The notes under the pieces: model-generated
What the model was told of the DNA's origin: nothing
Databases searched by the model: none
Seen by the model: the letters and a program-made list of their open reading frames with translations, nothing else
Part shown: positions 2,649 to 13,495 of the stretch, piece by piece
How positions within the stretch are numbered: the stretch's first letter is position 1
Layout: each line of letters begins with the position of its first letter
Assembly: GCA_002719475.1 (NCBI GenBank)
Contig: PBHQ01000011.1
Coordinates: 36,710 to 52,574 of the forward strand
Length of the DNA stretch: 15,865 nucleotides
Source of the DNA: Methanobacteriota archaeon
Lineage (GTDB): Archaea; Thermoplasmatota; Poseidoniia; Poseidoniales; Poseidoniaceae
Direction: 5' to 3'
Program-made: the position numbers and the translations under genes

Positions 2649-2693
2649 ACAGTCTCCGCACAGGTTGAATAGTGATTGTTTCTTGCCCAGTAC

Positions 2694-3482
2694 ATGCAAT
2701 CCCGATTGTTTGCTATGCTCACAGTCTTCTTGCTGAGCGGTTTGAGCGGCTGCTTTGGAGGTGGCGGTGATGGAATATTCGGCGATGGTGAAGAGTTGTA
2801 TGGGGAGCCAGGGGGATTGACTTTGGCTTGTTTGAGATCCGACGGTTTCGACAGTATGGTGGTGGAGATTGATTATTCCACAGGATACCAACCCGATTCC
2901 AGTACTGTTTCAACATTGAAATCACGTCTGCAGCAAGTTTGTGACAAACCTGGTGGAATCGACATTCAATTGTCAGAGACTAATTTTGAACACCAAGGAA
3001 GTTGGAGTGCAGATGATGTCAGAGAAATCGGTAGAGATACTAGAGGAGGAGTTCCACAAGATGGGAAAGTTTTGCGATGGCATTTGTTGTTCCCAAGTGG
3101 GTCATATGAGAATGATGGTGTGCTCGGAGTAGCGGTCGATGCTTCAACTGCGGCGGTGTTTCTCGATGATGTGAGAGATGCAGAACCTTGGACAACAAGA
3201 CCCAGTGCAGAGCAGATAGAGGAAGCTGTTACTGTTCATGAAGTAGGGCACTTGTTGGGGCTGGTAAATTTGGTATATCAATCTCCACGACCACATGAAG
3301 ATCCAGACCACCCAGGTCATTCGAACAATGAAGATAGTGTCATGTATTGGGCAGTAGAGTCTGGCGATATTAGTAGTTTCATCAGCAACGATGTGCCGGA
3401 TGAATTTGATGCGGATGATTTGGCAGACCTTGCTGATTTAGCATCGGGTGAGTTAGTAGCTAGCAAACAATTGTGGTCATAA
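2694..3482 (+). CDS. Lipoprotein with metzincin-like zinc metalloprotease motif
   Basis: 262 residues from ATG 2694; a TTG at 2676 would add six residues. The N-terminus is a short basic-hydrophobic signal ending in a lipobox, LSGC, with Cys20 the likely lipidated residue, followed by a Gly-rich linker. Residues 182-192 read HEVGHLLGLVN, the zinc-binding helix of metzincins (HExxHxxGxxH) with Asn where the third His is expected. Shortly after comes HEDPDHPGHS (201-210) and SVMYW, a plausible Met-turn at Met217. Known of the family: two helix histidines bind zinc, Glu183 is the general base. Inference: the third ligand is a His of the HPGH segment. The protein would act at the outer membrane face as an anchored endopeptidase; the substrate is unknown. 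The acidic C-terminus repeats DLADLADL. The stop abuts the stop of the next, convergent gene. Confidence 0.8.
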   Translation: MQSRLFAMLTVFLLSGLSGCFGGGGDGIFGDGEELYGEPGGLTLACLRSDGFDSMVVEIDYSTGYQPDSSTVSTLKSRLQQVCDKPGGIDIQLSETNFEHQGSWSADDVREIGRDTRGGVPQDGKVLRWHLLFPSGSYENDGVLGVAVDASTAAVFLDDVRDAEPWTTRPSAEQIEEAVTVHEVGHLLGLVNLVYQSPRPHEDPDHPGHSNNEDSVMYWAVESGDISSFISNDVPDEFDADDLADLADLASGELVASKQLWS

Positions 3483-4461: not shown

Positions 4462-5550
4462 ATGCGGTTGGGGCCTATGCGTAGGGGGCGGATTCTAGTT
4501 ACAGGCTATCCTCCATTTGCAGGAGGAACACGGAATATCAGTCAGATATTGATTGAGCGTCTTGTTAACTTAGGATTCGAACGAATCGCAATACCTACGG
4601 GTCCTCGTGTAAATGATGACGGCACTCCTTCACATAAGAAGGAAGAGATGGAGGTGGAGTGGAACACTCAGTTGTTATCATGTGATGAAGCGGGTTCTAG
4701 GTGGACTGCAGAAAGGGTAAATTCTCTCGAATACGATGCAATACTTCACCTTGGTCTTTGCAATATTTGTGAACAGCCCAGATTGGAATCTGTTGCAAGG
4801 AACATTCTGGACATGCGTATTGAAGACAACTCAGGACGTTGCTTACAAGGAGAAAATGTCATTTTGGGTGGATTAGACCAAATTCGGAGCACTGCCCCTT
4901 TGAATCGTTTACCAATAGAAGAATTGTGCATGATTTTGGAGGATTCCGATGATGCAGGTTCATTTGTGTGCAATGAAACATATTACCGAACCTTGGCTGC
5001 AATAGAAAAGAATGCTGTGCAAGATTCATTTGGACGCCCCTTGCCGTGTTTGTTCCTTCATCTCCCTGATGCATATGGGGAGGAGATTGAGAAACAGTTA
5101 GCATTGGTAAAACAACTGTCTGCGTGGCTACTTACTCGTCCACGCATCACTGTAGCATGTTCTGTGTTGGAGGATACTGATGGGAGTCTAATCAGTTGTC
5201 GAAGATCTGCAGATCAAAGTTTTGCTGGAGCATGGGAGTTTCCTGGGGGAAAGGTCGAGCGAGGTGAATCTTTGCAAGAAGCGTTCATTAGAGAATTGGA
5301 TGAAGAATTGGAGGTTGTAATCGAGCCCTTGGCTCCGCTGGCTCAACATGTACACGTGATGCCAAACTTAGAGATTGAGTTACATGCATGGCATTGTAGG
5401 ATAACTGACGGAATCCCGAGATTGAGTGTACATGATGCTATGCGGAAGTTGCAGGTTGATGAATTGTTGAATGTGGAATGGATCGATGCCGATTTGCCTA
5501 TGATTGCTGAAATCCAGAAGGCTTTGAGAAACTCAGAAAATGCTGCGTGA
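4462..5550 (+). CDS. Fusion: pyroglutamyl-peptidase-like (C15) domain plus Nudix hydrolase
   Basis: 362 residues. Residues 10-205 match peptidase family C15: the N-terminal ILVTGYPPFAGG strand-loop, RLESVARN with the expected catalytic Glu109, AGSFVCNETYY with Cys170, and LFLHLPD with His200, all in family order. C15 enzymes remove N-terminal pyroglutamate from peptides. Residues 228-350 form a MutT-like Nudix domain: WEFPGGKVERGE runs into RELDEELEV, giving the Nudix box with Glu278, Glu281 and Glu282 present but Glu284 where the late Gly is usual. MutT-type enzymes hydrolyse oxidised or other nucleoside triphosphates. A free C15 enzyme is about 200-220 residues, so both domains are near full length and a single reading frame joins them with a linker of only about 20 residues. 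ATG 4477 is an alternative start. The last 18 bases overlap the convergent UPF0201 gene. Confidence 0.85.
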   Translation: MRLGPMRRGRILVTGYPPFAGGTRNISQILIERLVNLGFERIAIPTGPRVNDDGTPSHKKEEMEVEWNTQLLSCDEAGSRWTAERVNSLEYDAILHLGLCNICEQPRLESVARNILDMRIEDNSGRCLQGENVILGGLDQIRSTAPLNRLPIEELCMILEDSDDAGSFVCNETYYRTLAAIEKNAVQDSFGRPLPCLFLHLPDAYGEEIEKQLALVKQLSAWLLTRPRITVACSVLEDTDGSLISCRRSADQSFAGAWEFPGGKVERGESLQEAFIRELDEELEVVIEPLAPLAQHVHVMPNLEIELHAWHCRITDGIPRLSVHDAMRKLQVDELLNVEWIDADLPMIAEIQKALRNSENAA

Positions 5551-6027
5551 AGTACCGTCTCTCGACATCCGATGTTCATCTCCGATGTTACGGGGTACCA
5601 TTTGTCTACCTTGGTGCCAAGTTGCATCTTCCAACCACTTGCCAAGATTTTTTCCAGATAATTTGATGCTGAAACTACCCCCTAGTGGTTCTTCGTCGTT
5701 AAGACAGAATGAGATTTTGTTTGCCATTGCAGCCTGCCGAGACAGTTTGAATATCGTACTGTCCTGATGCAAAGATTGGCTCATCGCATCTAAAGCAGTG
5801 TCCAGTATTCTCTCCTCTGCCATCCTCTCAAGAATTGCGTCAAGGCTTAGATTAACGAAATTCCACTGCACCTTTTCTTTTGGCATGGGAAATGAACACG
5901 GTCTATCTTCCAACTCATCGGCAATTACCTCTGGAAACAGTTTTTGCAGCGAGTTGAAAACTTCTACAGGGTCATCGGCTCCAGACAAGATTGTCGAGCA
6001 ACTGACCTGAATTGCCTCGTCCTGCAT
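5533..6027 (-). CDS. UPF0201 family protein (predicted RNA-binding fold)
   Basis: With the start at ATG 6027 (MQDEAIQVSCS) the protein has 164 residues. An in-frame ATG at 6126 would add 33 residues and overlap the divergent glycosyltransferase gene; I prefer 6027 because family members begin near this first strand and a TATA-like box lies at the right distance. Family hallmarks: an early VEVFNSLQKLFP helix, ERILDTALDAM, then LSRQAAMANKISFC and EEPLGG, matching the conserved ILD..., KQAA...F and PLG segments of the archaeal UPF0201 (COG1931) group. Its role is unestablished; an RNA-binding, ribosomal-protein-like fold has been proposed for it. The C-terminal 25 residues (WHQGRQMVPRNIGDE...) go beyond the usual family end and cross into the 3' end of the convergent fusion gene. 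Confidence 0.75.
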   Translation of the reverse strand: MQDEAIQVSCSTILSGADDPVEVFNSLQKLFPEVIADELEDRPCSFPMPKEKVQWNFVNLSLDAILERMAEERILDTALDAMSQSLHQDSTIFKLSRQAAMANKISFCLNDEEPLGGSFSIKLSGKNLGKWLEDATWHQGRQMVPRNIGDEHRMSRDGTSRSIF

Positions 6028-6047
6028 GCCTAGGGCATGACTGCGAG

Positions 6048-6060
6048 ATAAATCAATAAT
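6048..6060 (-). promoter_or_regulatory. TATA-like box for the UPF0201 gene
   Basis: The AT-only-but-one stretch ATAAATCAATAAT on the plus strand reads ATTGATTTAT on the minus strand. The TTTAT part lies 21-26 bases upstream of the ATG at 6027, the spacing of an archaeal TATA box for a leaderless transcript. This supports 6027 as the start. No BRE was confidently identified. Confidence 0.35.
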
Positions 6061-6108
6061 GCTCTTGAAGGGGGCAATATTCAGGTATTCGCCGCGTAGG
6101 GAAGCAAC

Positions 6109-7137
6109 ATGGAGGGCTCCGAGCAACCAATTGTGGTATCTGTCGTGCCAACCTATAACGAAGAGAAATGGATTGAACGTTGTCTATCATCACTTCTTGC
6201 CCAGACCTATCCTTCTGATAAGCATAGAATTCACGTTGTCGATGGTGGTAGCACCGATTCAACCCTCGATGTTGTTCGTCGATTGAAGGACGATAGTGAT
6301 GGCCCGCAGATAACTATCTTCGATAATCCTCAACGCAGAGTACCACATGCTCGAAACCTCAGTCTTGCAAATATGCAGGATGATGTAGAGTTGGTATTCG
6401 AAGTGAATGCGCATGGCTGGGTTCCAGAAGAACATCTTGAGAAAAGAGTGTCTGACATGCTTGAAATCGAGGCGGAACTAGGATTTCCCATAGCTGGAGT
6501 AGGATGCAGGGTCATGCCCTATGGCGATGAAGATATGGGGTTGTTTGCAAGGTGGGTTGAGTCAACAATTTCCAGTCCTCTTGGAAGCGGGGATGGCCAA
6601 TTTGCTAGGTTTACTGGTAGACACCAACACAAGGTGCCCGCATTTGTTATTCATAGAATGGAAGCGCTTCAGGATGCTCAAGGTTGGGATGAATCATTAC
6701 CGACCAATCAGGATTCTGATTTGAGCATGAGATTGATCAAGAGGGGTTGGCAGTTGTGGCGTTCAGATGTCAGCCCATTTCACATGGTGAAGCGAAGAAG
6801 GCCTCTAGAATTTGTTCGTATGTGCAGAAGATATGGATTCTGGAGAACAAAGACACTATTTCGACATGGAAGTCGTTTCAATATTCGTGAGTTTCTTCCA
6901 TTGTTCGGAGTCATTTTGACATTGGCGATGTTCTTTTCCGGCTTCCAATATTGGTTTGCTCCTCTGGCTGCTTATGGCTTAGCTGTAGTTCAAGTTGGAT
7001 TTATGGAGGCTATGCGAAGTAAGGACGTTTCACTGATCTTTGGTTTGCCGTTATTGCTACCGATTCTACATACAATGTTCACTTTAGGAATGTTTGAGGG
7101 CTTGATTCGAAGTAGTCTATCAATTGAGGACAGATGA
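6109..7137 (+). CDS. Membrane-associated family 2 glycosyltransferase, ExoA-like
   Basis: 342 residues. The GT-A domain begins with VVSVVPTYNEEKWIERCL, then VVDGGSTDST (43-52), a standard nucleotide-sugar-binding start of GT2 enzymes. VPHARNLSLANM and FEVNAHGWVPEEHL (97-110) match the region of ExoA (succinoglycan glucosyltransferase) that reads D-A/G-H; here the first Asp of the DxD-like motif is Asn100. TNQDSDLSMRLIKRG (199-213) carries the acceptor-side Asp, and RRYGFWRTKTLFRHG (240-254) is the basic segment typical of this group. Three hydrophobic spans follow (about 262-330). It would transfer a sugar from a nucleotide donor to a lipid-linked or surface glycan at the inner face; the exact sugar cannot be read. 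An AATATT at 6076-6081, about 30 bases upstream, could be its TATA element. Confidence 0.88.
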   Translation: MEGSEQPIVVSVVPTYNEEKWIERCLSSLLAQTYPSDKHRIHVVDGGSTDSTLDVVRRLKDDSDGPQITIFDNPQRRVPHARNLSLANMQDDVELVFEVNAHGWVPEEHLEKRVSDMLEIEAELGFPIAGVGCRVMPYGDEDMGLFARWVESTISSPLGSGDGQFARFTGRHQHKVPAFVIHRMEALQDAQGWDESLPTNQDSDLSMRLIKRGWQLWRSDVSPFHMVKRRRPLEFVRMCRRYGFWRTKTLFRHGSRFNIREFLPLFGVILTLAMFFSGFQYWFAPLAAYGLAVVQVGFMEAMRSKDVSLIFGLPLLLPILHTMFTLGMFEGLIRSSLSIEDR

Positions 7138-11642: not shown

Positions 11643-11683
11643 GACTCTCCGTGGGGGAGTGGTCTTTCAAATCATTCAAACCA

Positions 11684-13495
11684 ATGATTCGCATCGCTCG
11701 ATTTATGGAAGCGCATGTAATGGGTCAGACTTTACTGTCAAACCATCGAATGGCCAGGATTATTGCGCTAGGAGACCGAAAAAATCCTGCAGTCTTGACA
11801 CCATGCATGATTGCGAGAACTGAAGATGCACTTCTGATTCCAGAGCAGATGGCTCCCTTCATACATGAACAGGATAATTCGGAATTACCAGGTAGCCTGC
11901 GAATCCATTCTAGGCTTCCTTTGGCTATACCATTTGAAGGAAATGGTCCTGATTGGAGTATTAGATTACCACATGTATTGCCACCAAGTATGCAGGACGC
12001 AGATTACAAACAAGATGGTAATGATGGTCCACTGTTGGTAGTTACTTGGCAGAAATTATGCCATGATCCGAAATTAGTCAATCCTGATTTGAAACCGCAG
12101 ATTGTGGTCCTATTAGATGCAAAACAATTGGCACAACATCCTGGAAGATTGGCTTCGGCCTTACTTATTCTACGCACTAGGTTTTCTTCATCGTTGATAT
12201 GGTGTCCCGCAATTTCAGGTCCTGACAATCTCGCCCTACTAACATGGATGGGAGTAGATGTTCACGATATGGCAAGGACCATCCAATGTGAAGCCAATGA
12301 GCTATTGCTGACTTCTAGTGGCCCGCGCCATCCTGAAACATCTCTGTCAGAAGAGGTGTCCCGAGATGCCCATGTGAGAATTTGGCGTGAAGAATTGGCT
12401 AATGTAAAGCAGGCGATAAGAGAAGGACGACTTAGAGAATTAGTTGAACAGAGAGTCCTATCTAGTCCTAGAATGGTTGAGCATTTACGTTATCATGACG
12501 CGATGGCGTACGAAGAAAAGGCTTATTCTGCTTTATCGGTAGTAGTACCCACTGGGCATGCATTACGGGCCCATTCCGCCTCTTCATTGAATGATCCAGA
12601 GGTTTTGGATTGGGTGAATTTCATGCGCCTAAATTATCTCCCGCCAGAGTCCCGAAAGGAAGTCTTGGTATTGTTGCCATGCAGTCAAAGAAAACCATAC
12701 AGAGACAGTAGGTCTCATCGTCGTTTCCGAGAAGCCCTGGGTAATACTTCCGCCCATGAAGTGATGGTTACTAGCCCCCTTGGATTAGTGCCTAGAGATA
12801 TAGAAATGATTTGGCCTGCAGCACATTATGATGTGCCAACAACAGGCGATTGGACGGAAGATGAGAAGGTTAGAATCAATGATGTCCTCTCTTCGCTAAT
12901 CGAGAGGTGCGACTATCGATTGATTATCAACCACTCTGGGCTGGAATTTGATTTTCTTAGTGGAATAGAAGTCATCAATACGCGCGCATCAGATTCTGCG
13001 ACCTCAAAAGAGGCGTTGGAAAGACTTCGAGATACGATGTCGCAGGCGTGTGAAAAGTATGATATTGGCCGCCAATCAAATTCGCAGCGCTTACTTGAGG
13101 AATTCAAATCAGTTGCACGTCGACAGATGCGTAACGATTCATGGATGAATGGTCTTGAAGTGGTTGGTAAACCACCCCAATGGAAACTTGCAAAATCTGG
13201 CGTTCAGATGGCTCAATGGCTTCCCGAACGTGGGTCTTTGTCTCTTACCAAGGCCGCATTGCCACTATTGTTTGAGAATAATTCATTACCCACTATCGAA
13301 TTGATTTCTGGTATTGAGTGGAAAGGAGATGTATTTTCTTCTAATCTTTTGAGATTTGATTCGGATATCAAGAAGGGTGGGGATGTGTTGGTTTTACAAG
13401 ATGGAAAACTGCGAGGAATGGCTAGAGCAAGCATCGCATCATGGGCATGGCCTGACTCACCTGGACGCCTCGCTAGAGGTCATCATCGTCTCTAA
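11684..13495 (+). CDS. arcS: Archaeosine synthase ArcS (TgtA2)
   Basis: 603 residues from ATG 11684. A GTG at 11651 would lengthen it, and ATG 11705 would shorten it by seven residues; the family similarity begins at about ARIIALGDRKNPAVLTP, so all three keep the domain intact. The N-terminal half is a TGT-like barrel relic. The diagnostic motif LLPCSQRKPYRDSRSH (PCS at 332-334) is the PCSxxKPYxxSxSH signature of ArcS. A PUA domain, used to bind tRNA, forms the last 75 residues or so (SGIEWKGDVFSSNLL to ARGHHRL). Known: ArcS acts on preQ0 placed at position 15 of the tRNA D-loop by TgtA; it adds lysine to the nitrile, and a radical SAM partner (RaSEA) completes archaeosine. Neither partner is in the window. 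It is 80 bases upstream of S15 on the same strand. Confidence 0.87.
   Translation: MIRIARFMEAHVMGQTLLSNHRMARIIALGDRKNPAVLTPCMIARTEDALLIPEQMAPFIHEQDNSELPGSLRIHSRLPLAIPFEGNGPDWSIRLPHVLPPSMQDADYKQDGNDGPLLVVTWQKLCHDPKLVNPDLKPQIVVLLDAKQLAQHPGRLASALLILRTRFSSSLIWCPAISGPDNLALLTWMGVDVHDMARTIQCEANELLLTSSGPRHPETSLSEEVSRDAHVRIWREELANVKQAIREGRLRELVEQRVLSSPRMVEHLRYHDAMAYEEKAYSALSVVVPTGHALRAHSASSLNDPEVLDWVNFMRLNYLPPESRKEVLVLLPCSQRKPYRDSRSHRRFREALGNTSAHEVMVTSPLGLVPRDIEMIWPAAHYDVPTTGDWTEDEKVRINDVLSSLIERCDYRLIINHSGLEFDFLSGIEVINTRASDSATSKEALERLRDTMSQACEKYDIGRQSNSQRLLEEFKSVARRQMRNDSWMNGLEVVGKPPQWKLAKSGVQMAQWLPERGSLSLTKAALPLLFENNSLPTIELISGIEWKGDVFSSNLLRFDSDIKKGGDVLVLQDGKLRGMARASIASWAWPDSPGRLARGHHRL

Follow-up and report, generated by a model that had tools for sequence, protein, structure and literature searches.

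A pyroglutamyl-peptidase-I-like domain fused to a Nudix domain in a single protein of Poseidoniales archaea

The stretch of DNA analysed here (the window) comprises 15,865 nucleotides of contig PBHQ01000011.1 (positions 36,710 to 52,574, assembly GCA_002719475.1) from a Poseidoniaceae archaeon and carries on its plus strand, at 4462–5550, a gene for a 362-residue protein in which a pyroglutamyl-peptidase-I-like domain of family C15 is joined to a Nudix domain. The gene is defined by the list of open reading frames, Pfam, homologues and a predicted model, and its true start may be a second in-frame ATG at 4477: alignments with homologues begin at about residue 7, and model confidence is lowest over residues 1–10. 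The C15 domain, delimited by Pfam, structure matches and alignments, spans residues ~7–223 (4480–5130, plus strand) and contains Glu109, Cys170 and His200; a Cys100-x-x-Cys103 motif (4759–4770, plus strand), found through alignments and a tree, lies directly N-terminal of the catalytic Glu. The Nudix domain (residues ~228–356, 5143–5529, plus strand; Pfam, model and structure matches) includes a Nudix box that alignments place at residues 263–285 (5248–5316, plus strand), with Glu269, Arg277, Glu278, Glu281, Glu282 and, in place of the late Gly, Glu284. In Pfam, Peptidase_C15 (PF01470) matches residues 85–202 with 46.5 bits (gathering cut-off 22.7), NUDIX (PF00293) residues 228–344 with 54.9 bits (cut-off 21.1) and NUDIX_4 scores 50.2 bits (cut-off 35). 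The Pfam match covers only part of the C15 domain, but an AlphaFold2 model (mean predicted local distance difference test score 95.7, predicted template modelling score 0.91), made on an alignment termed A1 of the window protein and 61 of 120 listed homologues (62 rows), matches whole Pcp structures. In comparisons with Foldseek and VIA-align, residues ~8–226 correspond to Pcp chains and residues ~225–359 to Nudix chains, and only about four residues (224–227) separate the last C15 helix from the first Nudix strand, so that the model predicts a Pcp fold over the whole C15 domain followed by a Nudix fold.

The single-chain fusion, proposed in a preliminary description of this DNA, is borne out by these Pfam scores and by the homologues. 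A search of 5.8 billion proteins returned 169 homologues, and both Pfam domains are present in all of the best 120, which were examined; most of these have no taxon, and where a source name does include one, as a few do, it is Euryarchaeota, Methanobacteriota or Candidatus Poseidoniales. Among the best 80 of 590 matches examined from a second search, most of which are plain Nudix genes, matches across both domains occur in named Poseidoniales, Poseidoniaceae and Thalassarchaeaceae records. Since named records of the latter two families carry the same gene, the two families of the class here called f1 and f2 are probably Poseidoniaceae and Thalassarchaeaceae. Thirty of 39 relatives have a match spanning both domains, one of them (G035) with an internal stop; contig ends truncate or divide the match in three (G002, G017, G018), two have C15 alone (G027, G030) and four are without a full match (G006, G008, G026 and G037, the last with the beginning of one close to the end of a contig). 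In G035 the stop of the fusion frame (C8, L023) lies within the Nudix part. An assembly or frameshift error joining two genes, a possibility raised at the outset, is ruled out by the 120 two-domain homologues, the 30 spanning matches and the conserved neighbours, and its probability is next to nil. The ratio of non-synonymous to synonymous substitution rates (dN/dS) is low in both halves in 13 close pairs, the Nudix half having the lower value in 11. The gene encodes a genuine single-chain fusion that is old within Poseidoniales, with both halves under purifying selection, and by its sequence it appears to be a new architecture built from two known families. Neither such a fusion nor a described link between its halves, of which the preliminary description also knew none, was found in the parts of the open-licence PubMed Central literature consulted, PMC6741140 and PMC6461757 included. 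The source names of members vary ('8-oxo-dGTP diphosphatase', 'mutator protein MutT', 'NUDIX domain-containing protein', 'pyroglutamyl-peptidase I family protein'), and this alternation between Nudix-type and peptidase-type labels makes the architecture relevant to annotation.

The presumed catalytic residues picked out earlier in both domains (Glu109, Cys170 and His200; Nudix Glu278, Glu281 and Glu282) are correctly placed and invariant in all 62 rows of A1. In a set of 195 distinct rows, either fused or truncated by a contig end (identical rows counted once, 210 distinct of 219; contig-end rows L161 and L187 kept among the fused), the Glu and His of the C15 half are present in all 195 and the Cys in 194, the remaining row having an X. 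Counted along alignments, they fall on Glu79, Cys142 and His166 of the Pyrococcus furiosus Pcp chain 1iof, which we take to be its catalytic triad, and the mapped pocket residues, whose roles in Pcp are likewise assumed, are ordinary as judged by alignment to Pcp chains. Fold, triad and mapped pocket letters thus fit an active pyroglutamyl-peptidase I, which is the predicted activity of this half. By profile, the nearest Pcp (MEROPS C15, PF01470) is 6ltq of Fervidobacterium islandicum; the present proteins differ from Pcp in the C-terminal Nudix domain of many members, in the clade-specific Gly78, Arg126, Glu172 and Thr173, in the frequent CxxC motif and in their sub-equivalog scores. Both Cys of the motif are present in 116 of the 195 rows, one row has Cys and a gap, 78 have neither, and no row pairs one Cys with a different residue at the second place; the pair requires three changes on the C15 tree described below, which implies few events and not many independent ones.

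In the Nudix half, Gly263, Glu269, Arg277, Glu278, Glu281 and Glu282 are invariant in the 62 rows, in agreement with what we take to be the box consensus, G-x5-E-x7-R-E-U-x-E-E-x-G-U. Residue 284 is Glu in the window protein, as first noted, but the suggestion that this hints at altered specificity fails: among the 195 rows the position is Gly in 89, Asn in 28, Ser in 25, Glu in 20, Ala in 10 and Asp in 9, the rest being other letters or gaps, and because it varies so freely Glu284 is no marked feature. The assignment to the MutT-type Nudix superfamily stands, yet the cleaning of 8-oxo-dGTP is not the first guess, because the NudG model (PRK10546, 82.5 bits) outscores the MutT model (PRK10776, 61.1 bits) and the best solved relatives, 3gwy and 2rrk, are both named (putative) CTP pyrophosphohydrolase. 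These two, the 5-Me-CTP hydrolase of Bacteroides fragilis (Q5LBB1_BACFN, 3gwy) and NudG/Orf135 (2rrk), are the best Nudix sequence matches and share the Nudix box, except at the late Gly position, as well as an Asp aligned with Asp344; in contrast to them, the Nudix domain here is fused to C15, is 34–35 % identical in Foldseek alignments and has a substrate that is predicted only. The best NCBIfam match is PRK08999 (NF006530), at 93.8 bits far under its cut-off of 245. It covers only positions 4–129 of a 315-position model, so members of this subfamily can also form part of a larger protein, whose second domain is presumably ThiE-like; partner and order differ, however, as the Nudix domain comes first in PRK08999-type proteins. 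The PRK08999, NudG and MutT (TIGR00586) models match all 62 rows of A1, with best E-values of 5.5e-31, 9.5e-28 and 8e-24, and TIGR00586 scores 59.6 bits against a cut-off of 97.9. Escherichia coli MutT, an 8-oxo-dGTP diphosphatase, belongs to the same superfamily and likely shares the chemistry, with a lower model score than NudG. The Nudix half is therefore most likely a NudG/MutT-type hydrolase, and its nearest solved relative, which acts on 5-substituted CTP, suggests a preference of this kind.

A domain search and a survey of Poseidoniia had been recommended; the former puts both domains over their cut-offs and the latter finds the fusion in both f1 and f2. C15 is present in 231 of 292 class genomes, with a single match per genome save in G223 and G423. 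A third family, f5, has no genome among the C15-matched rows, and 18 f5 genomes are among the rows listed without a match, beside 41 further unmatched genomes that the list does not name. Among matches with E-values up to 1e-20 in 194 genomes of the phylum, the 42 that cover both domains, of which one is contig-cut and two have an internal stop, all lie in f1 and f2, as do three C15-only matches of this clade. Genomes outside these families have C15 (up to 237 bits to PF01470) and Nudix (74–111 bits to the fusion profile) on separate proteins, in some cases both within one genome (e.g. G082, G129, G163). No fusion was seen outside Poseidoniales among the matches listed, and rare ones may exist elsewhere. 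A Balneolaceae match (L127) was rejected as a fusion, being by our reading a protein of the MutY type that has a Nudix part of its own. Of five long C15 frames in other Thermoplasmatota, two of them in G114 and G096, the three that were compared with the fused Nudix profile (L043, L212 and L213) do not match it. The f1 genome G155 has, besides its fusion, an extra free Nudix match (107.9 bits, C181:4013–4420), possibly on a contaminating contig.

Some members of the clade have no Nudix half. Searches for C15-only proteins gave three matches with a single-sequence query and 6097 with a profile query, the best 120 of which were examined, and 15 distinct C15-only rows were split off by means of a hand-made list of 15 loci together with P0121–P0123, including P0122, which is probably contig-cut. 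In the genus g14, C15 stands alone in eight of the 11 genomes seen, with the fusion in two and neither in one; in g15 it stands alone in four of 15, with the fusion in 11 (one cut by a contig end). A C15 tree was made by a quick method, with Shimodaira–Hasegawa-like approximate likelihood ratio support only, from 344 rows (348 before removal of L187, L188, L161 and P0122) clustered at 78 % identity into 170; several outgroup branches are long. Its 150 Poseidoniales rows form one clade (support 100, starred) against 20 unfused outgroup rows, with an unresolved base and fused rows in all four basal branches. The fused or C15-only state changes six times, at least four of which are forced by starred branches; the apparent change among f1-type rows comes from P0121 alone. 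The simplest account is one fused ancestor with later losses of the Nudix half, a direction that we infer, since the counts fit loss or gain alike. The C15-only proteins keep Glu, Cys and His in 15 of 15 rows, have low dN/dS and retain a C-terminal stretch of 20–33 residues after the profile (contig-cut rows left out). Fission instead of loss was rejected: no free Nudix of the fused subfamily was seen in 12 C15-only genomes, whose best remaining matches (at most 43.9 bits) resemble those of fused genomes (up to 44.8) and not those of separate genes.

Since several lineages have dropped the Nudix half, the two halves seem loosely linked. This bears on the idea of a true coupling, in which both activities would act successively on a single pyroglutamyl compound linked to a nucleotide or would belong to one repair pathway. 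That the fusion is widely kept among the genomes examined would suit such coupling, as would the separate component genes of relatives, an arrangement that is frequently a hint of functional linkage, but repeated loss with no substitute of the same subfamily and the finding of Nudix halves without C15 at contig ends only (in the surveys of the 39 relatives and of the C15-only lineages) make it very improbable. The proposal that the fusion joins two damage-repair activities is likewise weakened as regards a tight pairing, and a loose pairing of clean-up activities is favoured.

We hypothesize, with a probability of roughly 55 %, that the protein is a loosely coupled bifunctional enzyme, a pyroglutamyl-peptidase I and a NudG/MutT-type Nudix hydrolase that were fused once, with the Nudix half lost several times. 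One chain, probably cytosolic, would carry two separate active sites. The N-terminal Cys/His/Glu half would remove N-terminal pyroglutamate as 5-oxoproline, so that blocked peptides could be degraded further, and the C-terminal, metal-dependent Nudix half would hydrolyse non-canonical nucleoside triphosphates, most likely of the 5-substituted or oxidised (d)CTP type, to monophosphate and pyrophosphate. The fusion would have arisen in a single event before the split of the two Poseidoniales families, from two genes that relatives keep apart, and would tie together the production of two clean-up activities with no channelling of a shared substrate; the Nudix half would have been lost several times afterwards. 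Architecture, conservation, predicted fold, phylogeny and selection are computed here, and both reactions, the substrates, the cellular place, the direction of loss and the lack of channelling are deduced. In this very abundant, uncultured order of archaea from the surface ocean, both families sampled have retained a fusion of two housekeeping enzymes, and the natural half-protein lineages, in which the same C15 can be compared with and without its partner, make the reason for the fusion directly testable.

Several observations weigh against the bifunctional enzyme. On the C15 side, Gly78, Arg126 and Glu172 are fixed in the clade (150 rows each, one gap), Thr173 is found in 146, and all are variable in relatives, which might be a sign of a shifted substrate and is the chief hint of an activity other than that of a Pcp; the equivalog models TIGR00504 (pyroglutamyl-peptidase I; 42.5 bits, cut-off 201.75) and PRK13194 (34.5 bits, cut-off 274) are far from reached. 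A PxpA-type 5-oxoprolinase (PF03746) was found in none of 60 class genomes, and thus in none of the 39 sampled from f1 and f2, and hydantoinase B (PF02538, not specific to 5-oxoprolinase) in eight, one of the 39 and seven of 21 from f5, so that free pyroglutamate would be left with no known outlet. The C15 half could accordingly have moved to another lactam or amide substrate, such as a cyclised glutamyl metabolite, making the protein a metabolite-repair enzyme, as the low scores, the two clade letters directly after the catalytic Cys and the 38 genomes without a marker would suggest. We consider this unlikely: the mapped pocket is ordinary, some of the letters occur singly in ordinary Pcp chains (Asn-Glu after the Cys in 6ltq; DN-x-GR and VD at the same places in 2ebj), and most C15-bearing relatives equally have no 5-oxoprolinase marker. 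In 40 other, C15-positive Thermoplasmatota, PxpA is present in one and hydantoinase B in six, so scarce markers barely discriminate, and their absence was dropped as proof of an odd substrate. Across families, f5 has a hydantoinase-B/5-oxoprolinase-type gene in seven of 21 genomes and no genome among the C15-positive rows listed, the reverse of f1 and f2. A bolder version, in which the clade-fixed neighbours of the C15 active site point to a lactam or amide substrate not yet described and the protein performs, in archaea of the sunlit ocean, a novel two-step repair of cyclised glutamyl compounds and damaged cytidine nucleotides, perhaps with the CxxC pair as a redox switch, strikes us as decidedly improbable.

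The Nudix half of the proposed bifunctional enzyme adds further points to the same side. Its mean pairwise identity in A1 is 35 %, against 42 % for C15; over 97 usable pairs, many of them saturated, median dN/dS is nearly equal (C15 0.367, Nudix 0.360); the NudG and MutT scores remain under their cut-offs (156 and 148, respectively); and Asp344 is not diagnostic, because an aligned Asp is also found in 3r03, 5x1x and 3hhj, two of which are named MutT. The Nudix half might instead act chiefly as a control domain for the peptidase, by sensing nucleotides or by stabilising it, in keeping with the very short linker and confident joint model, with its lower conservation over long distances and with the retention of C15 after Nudix loss, as expected of an accessory domain. 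This appears quite unlikely, given that the catalytic Glu residues are invariant wherever the domain is present, although in a pure sensor their occasional loss would be expected, and that dN/dS is lower in the Nudix half in most close pairs.

The gene following the fusion gene (5533–6126, minus strand), which has a sub-threshold PF01877 match, is convergent with it, and upstream lie two minus-strand genes that read as membrane-protein-like; from this arrangement the fusion gene is probably transcribed alone. In 24 of 25 loci, C15-only ones included, the C15 or fusion gene is flanked by g4, which encodes a small membrane protein, and g7, which is PF01877-like; a named and an unnamed locus may in some cases stem from one genome. 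In the twenty-fifth (L222, G008), g7 and genes farther downstream are present but the fusion site is occupied by unrelated frames, and therefore the whole gene can be lost too. At 6600–12001 of L222, a membrane-protein-like frame, a HAD-phosphatase-like frame and others, read from the frames, take its place. Elsewhere in the window, the plus-strand gene at 2676–3482 has a sub-threshold Peptidase_M10 match (22.8 bits, cut-off 24) with an HEVGHLLGL motif, which we take to resemble a zinc site, and a later SVMYW, and perhaps encodes a secreted metzincin-like protease. The plus-strand gene at 11651–13495, which in its wider surroundings has a ribosomal S15 gene on one side and a DnaJ gene on the other, matches DUF5591 (138 bits) with a trace of the TGT family, and its product perhaps belongs to the archaeosine (tRNA modification) group.
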